Assembly: GCA_029246415.1 (NCBI GenBank)
Contig: JAQWNF010000036.1
Coordinates: 1 to 32,188, forward strand
Source of the DNA: Glaciecola sp.
GTDB lineage: Bacteria > Pseudomonadota > Gammaproteobacteria > Enterobacterales > Alteromonadaceae
Direction of reading: 5' to 3'
Length of the DNA: 32,188 nucleotides
In this document: positions 24,578-27,437 of the stretch, piece after piece
How positions within the stretch are numbered: the stretch's first letter is position 1
How the letters are laid out: the number at the start of each line of letters is the position of its first letter
The notes under the pieces: model-generated
Database searches by the model: none
Seen by the model: only the letters and a program-made list of their open reading frames with translations
Told to the model about the DNA's origin: nothing
Made by a program: the position numbers and the translations under genes

Positions 24578-24613
24578 GACGCAGGATTGTCATTTAACCG
24601 TCAAACCTGCGTC
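24578..24613 (+). terminator. Possible terminator hairpin after the M28 peptidase gene
   Basis: GACGCAGG (24578–24585) pairs with CCTGCGTC (24606–24613), with three further inner pairs (TTG/CAA) after a mismatch and a 12-base loop. The bases that follow (ACCTCTTTGTC) are only weakly T-rich, so termination is uncertain. The hairpin overlaps the first three PHO half-sites. Confidence 0.4.
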
Positions 24614-24626
24614 ACCTCTTTGTCAT
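24587..24626 (+). promoter_or_regulatory. Two tandem PHO boxes (PhoB-binding candidates)
   Basis: Four seven-base half-sites stand in exact 11-bp register: TTGTCAT (24587), CCGTCAA (24598), GCGTCAC (24609) and TTGTCAT (24620), each with a GTCA core and a four-base spacer. The first pair matches 15 of 18 positions of the E. coli PHO box CTGTCATAWAWCTGTCAY as I count it. Two boxes 22 bp apart is the standard tandem layout. The last half-site lies ten bases before TAATTT (24637), a weak -10, as expected of an activator-dependent promoter. The metallophosphoesterase gene starts 45 bases after the last half-site. Confidence 0.65.
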
Positions 24627-24671
24627 ATTATTGCGCTAATTTGGATACATCAACACCAAATTGAGCTATCT

Positions 24672-25475
24672 ATGACGACTCATTACAATGCCATTTTTTT
24701 ATCCGATATCCACCTTGGTAATCCAGATTGTAAAGCTGAACTATTATTAGAATTTTTAGCACTTCATACCTGTAATTCTCTGTACCTGGTGGGCGATATT
24801 GTCGACTTGTGGCAAATGCAAAAACAATTTACTTGGCCAGAAAAACATAATGAAGTTTTACATAAAATAATCGCGCTAAGCCACACAAATTGCCAAGTAA
24901 AATACTTACCCGGAAATCATGATGCACCATTACAAAAATACAATGATTTGCACATAGGTGATATTGAAGTCAAACGTAAAATGGTTCACACCACTATACT
25001 TAAACAACAATTTTTGGTGTTACACGGTGACCAGTTTGATGAATACGTCACCTTAGGTAAATTCCAAAATTGGTTAGGAAATACCGGATACGATTTAGTA
25101 CTCTTACTGAATCGTCAGTACAATCTTTTTCGTTCGTGGAAAAAAGCACCTTATCGTTCATTAGCTGGTTATATTAAAAGTCGAATTAAAGGAGCTCAGG
25201 CGGCGATACACCGCTACAAAGTAGCCTGTATTGATGAAGCTAAATTTTTAAATCTAGACGGGGTGATATGTGGTCATATCCATCATCCAGAACAAGACGA
25301 GATTGATGGAATTTTATATTTTAATGATGGTGATTGGATCGAAAATTGTAGTGCCCTGTGCGAAACACAGTCAGGAGATATGATTTTACTTGATTGGGTA
25401 GCAGAGCGCGAACGGCAAAAAAGTGAGCTCAGATCCATTAAAAATGATTCTTCTACTAATCTAAATGCAGCGTAA
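24672..25475 (+). CDS. Metallophosphoesterase, LpxH/PlcP-like (candidate phospholipase C)
   Basis: A 267-residue calcineurin-fold phosphoesterase with every metal motif: SDIHLG (about 11–16), GDIVDLW (about 42–48), GNHD (about 81–84), HGDQFDEY (about 117–124) and GHIHHPE (about 198–204). This family (COG2908) includes LpxH of lipid A synthesis and PlcP, the phosphate-starvation phospholipase C of Sinorhizobium and many marine bacteria. It is longer than LpxH (about 240), is not beside the usual lpxH neighbours, and forms an operon with an OlsF-like acyltransferase behind PHO-box-like repeats. I therefore favour PlcP, hydrolysing phospholipids to diacylglycerol. There is no signal peptide, so it acts on the cytoplasmic membrane face. 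The exact substrate is inferred. Confidence 0.82.
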   Translation: MTTHYNAIFLSDIHLGNPDCKAELLLEFLALHTCNSLYLVGDIVDLWQMQKQFTWPEKHNEVLHKIIALSHTNCQVKYLPGNHDAPLQKYNDLHIGDIEVKRKMVHTTILKQQFLVLHGDQFDEYVTLGKFQNWLGNTGYDLVLLLNRQYNLFRSWKKAPYRSLAGYIKSRIKGAQAAIHRYKVACIDEAKFLNLDGVICGHIHHPEQDEIDGILYFNDGDWIENCSALCETQSGDMILLDWVAERERQKSELRSIKNDSSTNLNAA

Positions 25476-25478
25476 ATT

Positions 25479-27182
25479 ATGTTTTCAGTCGCCGATGTAA
25501 TCCACAAACAATATCCTCAAATTGCTGAAAAGCCATACTTGGCCAAACCTCTGATCTATTTTTTGCGTCAGTTATTGCATGAATCGGATATCAAAGCGTT
25601 TGTCGAACAATACCCACATTTAACTGGTATTGATTTTGTTGAGCAAGTGTTGGATTACTTTAATGTGACCTACTCCGTTAGAGATGCTGAAAAACAGCGG
25701 ATCCCGACAACGGGAAAAGTCGTCATTATCGCAAATCACCCAGTTGGTTCACTTGACGGCTTGGCGTTATTAAAAATGGTTCATGAAATCCGTCCTGATG
25801 TGAAAGTGATGGCCAATCAAATGTTGATGAGTGTGACCGCTTTAAATCAAGTCTTATTACCGGTCAATAATATGTCTGGTGCTACTGCACGCCACGATAT
25901 GGACAAGATTAAGCATCATCTACAGCACGAAGGGGCGTTGTTAGTGTTTCCGGCTGGAGAGGTATCGCGTCTGCGCCCACAAGGAGTCCGAGATAGTAAT
26001 TGGCGTAGCGGTTTCTATCGCATTGCAAAACAACACCAAGCGCCTATTTTACCGGTGTTTATTGATGCTAAAAATTCACCACTATTTTATAGTTTATCTA
26101 TGTTGTACAAACCGCTGTCGACAGTATTGTTAGTGAAAGAAATGTTCAAACAGCGCAAAGCGCATTTTCCCATTCGGATCGGTGAAATAATCCCAGTATC
26201 ATCGTATACATTGCCTAATCTTCCAATGAAAACGTTGATCAAGCTCTTTAAAAAGCACCTGTACGCAGTTGGATTTGACAAGCCTGTAGTGTTTCAAACT
26301 CAGACGCCCATTGCGATGCCAGAAAACCGTTCACAGGTATTACGTGAATTACAAGAACAGTGTGAATCACTAGGCCAAACCTCTGATAACAAAGCTATAT
26401 ATTTGTATCGCCATACTAATTCAAGTGCTTTAATGCGTGAAATAGAACGTTTACGCGAGGTGTCGTTTCGTGCCGTCGGTGAAGGAACGTATCACAAGCG
26501 TGACATTGATCAATACGATTCACATTATTTTCATTTGATTCTATGGGATCAAGACGCACTTGAAATCGTGGGTGCTTATCGGTTTGCCGATGCAGCCCAA
26601 TTAAGCCAAGCACAGCATGAAACCGGATTATATAGCACGACATTATTTGACTATAATGAACACATGCAACCTTATTTCGAACAAGGCTTAGAATTAGGGC
26701 GCAGTTTCGTTCAGCCTCAATATTGGGGCAAACGTTCGTTAGATTATTTATGGTTTGGAATTGGCGCGTTCATCCGTAAATACCCAAAATACCGCTATTT
26801 ATTCGGGCCGGTTAGCTTATCTGATACCTACCCCGACGAAGCAAAACAGTTGATCATTGCTTTTTACTCAACATACTTTGGGGCGACAAGACCTTGTGCG
26901 CAGGCAACCATACCTTTTGTTCGCAAAAACAATGAGACCACTCACTTCACTGGTACAGATTACAAAACAGAATTCACACATTTCAAACACGTGCTTTCTT
27001 CAATGGGCTACGCTGTACCAACATTGTACAAACAGTATTGTGATATAGCACAACGCGAAGGGGTCACATTTCATGGTTTTAATATTGATCCTGACTTTAA
27101 TAACTGTGTTGATGGATTAGTTATGGTTGATGTTACACAGTTAAAACCCAAAAAATATCGGCGCTACATCGCTACAGATTAA
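25479..27182 (+). CDS. olsF: Two-domain acyltransferase, OlsF-like (ornithine lipid synthesis)
   Basis: A 567-residue fusion. The amino-terminal half is a PlsC/OlsA-type O-acyltransferase with ANHPVGSLDG (His87…Asp93) and FPAGEVSR (about 157–164). The carboxy-terminal half (about 305–490) is an OlsB-type N-acyltransferase with YHLILW-like strands, ELGRSFVQPQYWGKRSLDYLWFGIG near 405–429 and FGPVSLSD. OlsF of Serratia has the same domain pair and makes ornithine lipid from ornithine and two acyl chains. It starts three bases after the metallophosphoesterase stop, so the two are one operon. Ornithine lipid contains no phosphorus and replaces phospholipids in starved cells, which agrees with the PHO boxes upstream. 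An alternative is another amino-lipid acyltransferase with a different head group. Confidence 0.82.
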   Translation: MFSVADVIHKQYPQIAEKPYLAKPLIYFLRQLLHESDIKAFVEQYPHLTGIDFVEQVLDYFNVTYSVRDAEKQRIPTTGKVVIIANHPVGSLDGLALLKMVHEIRPDVKVMANQMLMSVTALNQVLLPVNNMSGATARHDMDKIKHHLQHEGALLVFPAGEVSRLRPQGVRDSNWRSGFYRIAKQHQAPILPVFIDAKNSPLFYSLSMLYKPLSTVLLVKEMFKQRKAHFPIRIGEIIPVSSYTLPNLPMKTLIKLFKKHLYAVGFDKPVVFQTQTPIAMPENRSQVLRELQEQCESLGQTSDNKAIYLYRHTNSSALMREIERLREVSFRAVGEGTYHKRDIDQYDSHYFHLILWDQDALEIVGAYRFADAAQLSQAQHETGLYSTTLFDYNEHMQPYFEQGLELGRSFVQPQYWGKRSLDYLWFGIGAFIRKYPKYRYLFGPVSLSDTYPDEAKQLIIAFYSTYFGATRPCAQATIPFVRKNNETTHFTGTDYKTEFTHFKHVLSSMGYAVPTLYKQYCDIAQREGVTFHGFNIDPDFNNCVDGLVMVDVTQLKPKKYRRYIATD

Positions 27183-27260: not shown

Positions 27261-27437
27261 GTGATTCGACTACTATTTCTTATTCCCCTTGTTTTAAGTA
27301 TTATTTGGATACTTTACCTTCGTGCTAATGACTACACTCTCAAGCAAGGCAAACAAGGCTTTCTCTATATTTTTATCTTTAGTGGTGTGATTGCTATTTT
27401 TTATACCGTCATGATGTTTCTAACCCAACAACAATAA
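27261..27437 (+). CDS. Small two-helix membrane protein, function unknown
   Basis: A 58-codon frame starting GTG, with AAAGG about ten bases upstream. Residues 3–20 (LLFLIPLVLSIIWILYLR) and 34–54 (FLYIFIFSGVIAIFYTVMMFL) are hydrophobic helices separated by a short polar loop with ANDYTLKQGKQG. It lies 78 bases after the olsF stop and just before a strong bidirectional hairpin, so it could be the last gene of the olsF operon or have its own promoter. I do not recognise a family. The two-helix layout and the terminator directly after the stop argue that it is real. Confidence 0.65.
   Translation: MIRLLFLIPLVLSIIWILYLRANDYTLKQGKQGFLYIFIFSGVIAIFYTVMMFLTQQQ

Follow-up and report, generated by a model that had tools for sequence, protein, structure and literature searches.

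A predicted Pho-regulon plcP-olsF pair for membrane lipid remodelling in Glaciecola and related Alteromonadaceae

Lipid remodelling by PlcP reduces how much phosphorus ocean bacteria require, and it has been presented as a route from diacylglycerol to glycolipid or betaine-lipid synthesis. We analysed a 32,188-nucleotide stretch of Glaciecola sp. DNA (assembly GCA_029246415.1, contig JAQWNF010000036.1, forward strand; hereafter the window), in which a PHO box precedes a PlcP-type phosphoesterase gene and olsF, the gene of a bifunctional aminolipid synthase. We put the probability that plcP and olsF act as a Pho-regulon lipid-remodelling pair in this bacterium at roughly 0.85, judging from sequence comparisons. 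PlcP lipid remodelling is already known; the OlsF pairing is a variant of it, unlike the sugar-lipid pairing found elsewhere.

The PlcP-Agt and PlcP-BtaAB systems of Sinorhizobium, marine heterotrophs, P. aeruginosa and Methylosinus share with the window a PlcP homologue, a Pho box and a nearby gene for a phosphorus-free replacement lipid. In the window, however, the partner is OlsF, and diacylglycerol does not serve as the base of the replacement lipid. Section 13 of PMC4796936 gives btaAB, agt and other glycosyltransferases as the neighbours of plcP, and OlsF is not one of those described in that section. According to passages of PMC8528852, P. aeruginosa PlcP is required for monoglucosyldiacylglycerol and most glucuronic acid diacylglycerol under low inorganic phosphate. 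The V. cholerae system, in which OlsF (VC0489) depends on PhoB (passages of PMC12186959), has in common with the window's genome an OlsF under phosphate control (predicted in our case) and one further OlsF-like protein; it differs in that plcP precedes olsF here with a 3-nt gap, and PlcP has 0 occurrences in the main text of that paper. P. putida BIRD-1 likewise has PhoBR-dependent PlcP and ornithine-lipid enzymes (passages of PMC5082522), but these are the two-protein OlsAB rather than OlsF, and plcP (PPUBIRD1_1390) and olsAB (PPUBIRD1_0974, _0975) are separate loci. A plcP-olsF operon is undescribed in the passages of papers that name both genes (PMC9239053, PMC5082522, PMC6298996, PMC9938194). 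In a search that left subscription literature mostly outside, we found no paper joining Alteromonas, ornithine lipid and phosphate limitation. Passages of PMC11165706 report plcP in all but two new marine strains and name no partner gene.

The features of the locus are as follows.

24587..24626, + strand: PHO box of four 7-bp half-sites (24587, 24598, 24609, 24620) with an 11-bp period, from a repeat pattern search
24672..25475, + strand: plcP, PlcP-type metallophosphoesterase, 267 aa, from Pfam PF00149, LpxH cut-offs, tree and identities
25476..25478, + strand: plcP-olsF gap, 3 nt, from open reading frame (ORF) positions
25479..27182, + strand: olsF, 567 aa, bifunctional synthase of ornithine lipid or possibly another aminolipid, from NF052615, PF19576 and PF13444

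An earlier note made from the sequence had placed the half-sites, both ORFs and the 3-nt gap at exactly these positions. The GTCA cores of the box lie at 24589, 24600, 24611 and 24622, and its end is 45 nt from the plcP ATG (24672). On the + strand of the window the three-unit pattern matched twice, against a shuffle expectation of 0.00, and 0 of 100 shuffles reached two matches; the repeat is therefore not due to chance. When at most 2 mismatches were allowed, the four-unit pattern matched 8 times in the genome as a whole (2.96 Mb) and a backwards control matched twice. The exact four-unit matches were the window's box and two overlapping ones at a single other place, a run of five half-sites upstream of a pstS-like gene with a phosphate-transport permease gene behind it (L208). 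The product of the pstS-like gene scored 147.8 bits on the PstS-family model, below the cut-off of 206.6, and was above the cut-off of Pfam PBP_like_2; this predicted, boxed phosphate gene is an internal positive control for the window repeat. By consensus, a Pho box repeats a CTGTCAT-like half-site directly every 11 bp. Such repeats are present in the window, and the genome encodes PhoB (365.3 bits, cut-off 296.2) with PhoR directly after it (542 bits, cut-off 390). Generic scans of promoters (7 promoter-like sites, shuffle mean 9.0) and terminators (1 terminator-like site, shuffle mean 2.6) were uninformative. Elsewhere in the window's genome (G000), a four-unit Pho-like box at 2918-2957 of L212 stands before a gene for a choice-of-anchor I family lipoprotein-like protein (contig C19, L212:1056-2840), which is a possible further member of the Pho regulon.

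The metallophosphoesterase belongs to the same superfamily as LpxH and has metal-binding columns in common with it in the alignment. Of 32 plasmid records with a homologue, 24 label it UDP-2,3-diacylglucosamine diphosphatase and 8 list no gene there; the earlier note had foreseen that an LpxH-type name would hide the role of this protein. It could on these grounds be a second, LpxH-like lipid A enzyme that merely adjoins olsF, a reading that we regard as very improbable. The window protein is above the cut-off of the calcineurin-like Metallophos model PF00149 and scored only 31.1 bits on the LpxH model TIGR01854 (cut-off 190.35) and 34.5 bits on NF003743 (cut-off 134). Two PlcP references were likewise low on the LpxH models (38-55 bits), and the genome holds a separate lpxH over the cut-off (G000:C3, 311 bits). 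The motifs SDIH, GDIVD, GNHD, HGDQF and GHIH of the window protein are of the same types in both references. Its identity was 35% to S. meliloti PlcP, 38% to P. aeruginosa PlcP and 21-22% to two LpxH proteins. The P. aeruginosa reference (L063) comes from a plcP-glycosyltransferase locus. The S. meliloti reference (L062) was taken as PlcP on two grounds: its gene adjoins a luxR/luxI pair, presumably sinR/sinI next to SMc00171, and the protein shares 47% identity with P. aeruginosa PlcP. This value is close to the published 46% between the two species' PlcPs, given in a passage of PMC8528852.

In a quick maximum-likelihood tree of this COG2908-type family (101 of 120 rows, near-copies having been removed beforehand), the four LpxH rows split off with a Shimodaira-Hasegawa-like approximate likelihood ratio support of 100. 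The window protein fell with the two PlcP references, apart from LpxH, and was nested among PlcPs of Alteromonadaceae; seven long terminal branches in other parts of the tree are uncertain. LpxH identity was rejected on the model scores, the separate lpxH and the tree, and the conserved Pho boxes described below also speak against it. On each of these sequence points (grouping apart from LpxH, another lpxH in the genome, repeats conserved in relatives) the earlier note's assignment to PlcP holds. We dropped the GN-x-D motif as a discriminator between LpxH and PlcP, since GNRD occurs in 4/4 LpxH but also in PlcP-like rows: the first regular-expression match in 116 PlcP-like rows was GNHD in 79, GNKD in 23, GNRD in 10 and four other forms once each, and the lone GNPD was an N-terminal false match within the window protein. 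A PDB sequence search at 0.001 returned no match for either window protein.

The OlsF assignment of the earlier note was borne out by the curated equivalog NF052615 (857.7 bits, cut-off 620). The note described a PlsC/OlsB-type fusion, and here a minor point concerns the N-terminus: the O-acyltransferase model PF19576 (residues 10-242) is the best match to that half with 115.5 bits, PlsC-type PF01553 is weaker with 43.7 bits, and the C-terminal GNAT N-acyltransferase PF13444 spans residues 325-425. The lipid made might carry another head group than ornithine, such as lysine or glycine, given that the glycine-lipid models match the two halves (GlsA 180.8 of 260 bits, GlsB 163.7 of 300 bits) and that passages of PMC11631085 suspect an OlsF homologue of taking part in the synthesis of lysine lipid. 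With the OlsF model so far above its cut-off, we hold this to be unlikely. A second OlsF-like protein in the same genome (G000:C1:171956-173644, L214:1442-3181) scored 299 bits, below the OlsF cut-off, a situation reminiscent of V. cholerae, which has two OlsF homologues; within the sequence retrieved around its gene, no four-unit Pho box reached a score of 34. Downstream of olsF in the window, on the same strand, lies a small hydrophobic ORF of about 58 aa (27261-27437).

Co-occurrence was examined in a family sample of 147 genomes and a class-wide sample of 369. In the family, 80 PlcP-like matches were found at E <= 0.001, and the 72 with E below 1e-48 were counted as strong PlcP; of the 8 weaker matches left out, three (G011, G028, G136) look like pieces of PlcP. 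OlsF above the cut-off was present in 90/147 genomes, namely 70/72 with strong PlcP and 20/75 others (Fisher p = 7e-21, uncorrected for relatedness). Among the 70, the order was plcP-olsF in 53, olsF-plcP in 2 and divergent in 1 (G006, of the window's genus), and the genes were unlinked in 14. Only G059 and G081 had strong PlcP and lacked OlsF above the cut-off; in G081 (C7:81755-83462) an OlsF beside plcP is split over two overlapping frames. Four other genomes of the window's genus (G055, G090, G118, G142) have neither gene and only the weaker OlsF paralogue.

Outside the family, three family genomes having been removed from the class-wide sample, PlcP (E <= 1e-25) occurred in 13/19 OlsF genomes (E <= 1e-150; 18 above the curated cut-off and one, G152, below) versus 87/347 others (p 1.5e-4). 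There the order was olsF-plcP in G419 and G206 and divergent in G232, with plcP-agt on the other side. The adjacency of the two genes thus recurs in other families and gene orders. One strand of the G206 locus (L204) carries a box, olsF, plcP, a methyltransferase-like ORF, a second box and agt, and the two replacement-lipid routes seem to lie next to each other in this lineage. Within 27 non-family class loci, taken as the best-scoring ones from 100 matching genomes, an Agt-like glycosyltransferase match was found in 19 and none in 8, and a strong one (over 250 bits) lay directly downstream of plcP in 14. By comparison, 56 named, mostly Alteromonadaceae loci had olsF after plcP in 50 (one, L169, partial) and an Agt match in 0.

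Both genes could belong to the Pho regulon and their pairing still be incidental, PlcP scavenging phosphorus, its diacylglycerol being re-used via DgkA and OlsF acting independently. We consider this possible but doubtful. DgkA is encoded in the genome, 20/90 OlsF genomes are without strong PlcP, and in 14/70 genomes the pair is unlinked, with an own olsF box in 3/3 of those examined. Against this, strong PlcP went without OlsF over the cut-off in just 2/72 genomes, and the adjacency is repeated in G206, G419 and G232.

The Pho boxes of relatives argue for a Pho-regulon plcP-olsF pair. A four-half-site score was calibrated on background windows from named loci (n=1120; 99th percentile 32.4, maximum 40.0). 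We scored 57 plcP upstreams from the 72 strong-PlcP genomes and 56 of 68 named loci, which overlap with the family genomes. At least the background 99th percentile was reached by 50/57 family loci and 56/56 named loci; of the 12 named loci that were excluded, most are distant homologues and none has olsF, and 6 (L183-L187, L194) also score >=32.4. Where plcP is unlinked to olsF it has its own box at the 99th percentile in 12/14 cases (exceptions L069 and L076), and olsF without adjacent plcP scored 35.1-36.7 in 6/6 cases, three from the 14 unlinked pairs and three from the 20 genomes without strong PlcP. Outside the family, boxes scoring >=34 were found at G206, G232 and G463 (before olsF). 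Pho boxes are therefore present in most copies of each arrangement examined, and conservation of this architecture, which the earlier note had proposed to check, was recovered in the scanned relatives. These findings suggest that both genes usually stay under Pho control, however they are arranged, and joint phosphate control of plcP and olsF is a well supported prediction.

The earlier note had further proposed that one transcript serves both genes. This fits the window, where the 150 bp upstream of olsF contain no second PHO box (best score 24.4). As a general rule it was dropped, since olsF scores for a box of its own, at or above the background 99th percentile, in 40/49 named operonic loci. 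The window's predicted single-box form is a compact exception among named loci; L165 (Glaciecola sp. KUL10) resembles it, with plcP and olsF overlapping.

Several observations weigh against a Pho-controlled remodelling pair. The identity of the window protein to the PlcP references is only 35-38%, and 20/90 OlsF genomes lack strong PlcP, one of these (G028) having a partial PlcP match. Seven of the 57 family plcP loci (L005, L019, L040, L041, L056, L069, L076) miss the 99th percentile, G023 (23.9) and G035 (26.8) being clearly below it, and one background window scored as high as 40.0. Two of five non-family linked or nearby plcP-olsF loci, G419 and G294, are without a four-unit box scoring 34. 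The phosphate response, PhoB binding and enzyme activity are predictions from sequence. Furthermore, OlsF does not consume the diacylglycerol that PlcP produces, so that the pairing is one of shared purpose and not of pathway.

In the mechanism we propose, PhoB would bind the four-half-site box at 24587-24626 under phosphate starvation and turn on plcP and olsF, probably as a joint transcript. PlcP would then cleave phospholipids into diacylglycerol and a phosphorylated head group and so release phosphorus. From acyl-acyl carrier protein (acyl-ACP) and an amino acid, OlsF would make an aminolipid that contains no phosphorus, most likely ornithine lipid, by which the membrane may be refilled. 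The strip-and-replace design put forward in the earlier note stands as a shared Pho-boxed pair; the metabolic link is looser than it implied.

OlsF uses acyl-ACP and ornithine, and PlcP-released diacylglycerol therefore needs another fate. P. aeruginosa Agt1 at 1e-15 had no match in the window's genome and only partial matches in 4/147 family genomes; BtaA was absent from the window's genome and present in 3/147. A diacylglycerol-using gene of the Agt or BtaA kind, which is typical of PlcP systems but not obligatory, was thus not found in G000, other glycosyltransferase types and wax ester/diacylglycerol acyltransferase genes not having been searched. DgkA was found, and re-use by this route would draw on ATP phosphate. 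Alteromonas genovensis and A. hispanica have a class-3 lipase gene behind the Pho-boxed plcP on the same strand, 43 and 7 nt away, respectively.

L131:4836-5657 and L138:4800-5621, same strand as plcP: class-3 lipases directly after Pho-boxed plcP in these two Alteromonas species

In a hand-chosen sample of 77/147 family genomes, relatives of this lipase occurred in 12/45 with PlcP and 0/32 without a PlcP match (Fisher p 0.0009, uncorrected for relatedness). They were also present in 3 named genomes given alongside, two of which had supplied the query family. Eight genera of this sample include genomes both with and without PlcP (g1, g3, g5, g9, g19, g30, g36, g39); in g3, g5 and g19 the lipase is present in the PlcP genomes and missing from the others, and in the remaining five no genome has it. 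Unlinked lipase loci had a two-half-site box in 8/13 cases (shuffle p <= 0.013) and none in 5/13. The GHSSG motif is kept in all 15 distinct lipase copies. These data suggest that in some relatives diacylglycerol may be hydrolysed. Lipase action on diacylglycerol is itself not new, a diacylglycerol lipase being known from S. meliloti (a reference title within PMC7779409). The lipase explains at most part of the family because the window's genome has no match at 1e-10.

Tentatively, PlcP in this family may have been cut loose from diacylglycerol glycolipids and rewired to aminolipids, diacylglycerol being hydrolysed and the freed acyl chains re-used by OlsF, with the window as a compacted single-box form. 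Hydrolysis would fall, in part of the family, to the class-3 lipase, which takes the place of olsF after plcP at the two Alteromonas loci. We think this broader scenario possible rather than probable.

Genes labelled LpxH can be PlcP. The main partner of PlcP in this marine family appears to be an aminolipid synthase that is unable to use diacylglycerol. The OlsF pairing turns the fate of diacylglycerol into a concrete, testable question, and the class-3 lipase is a candidate gene for that fate in part of the family.

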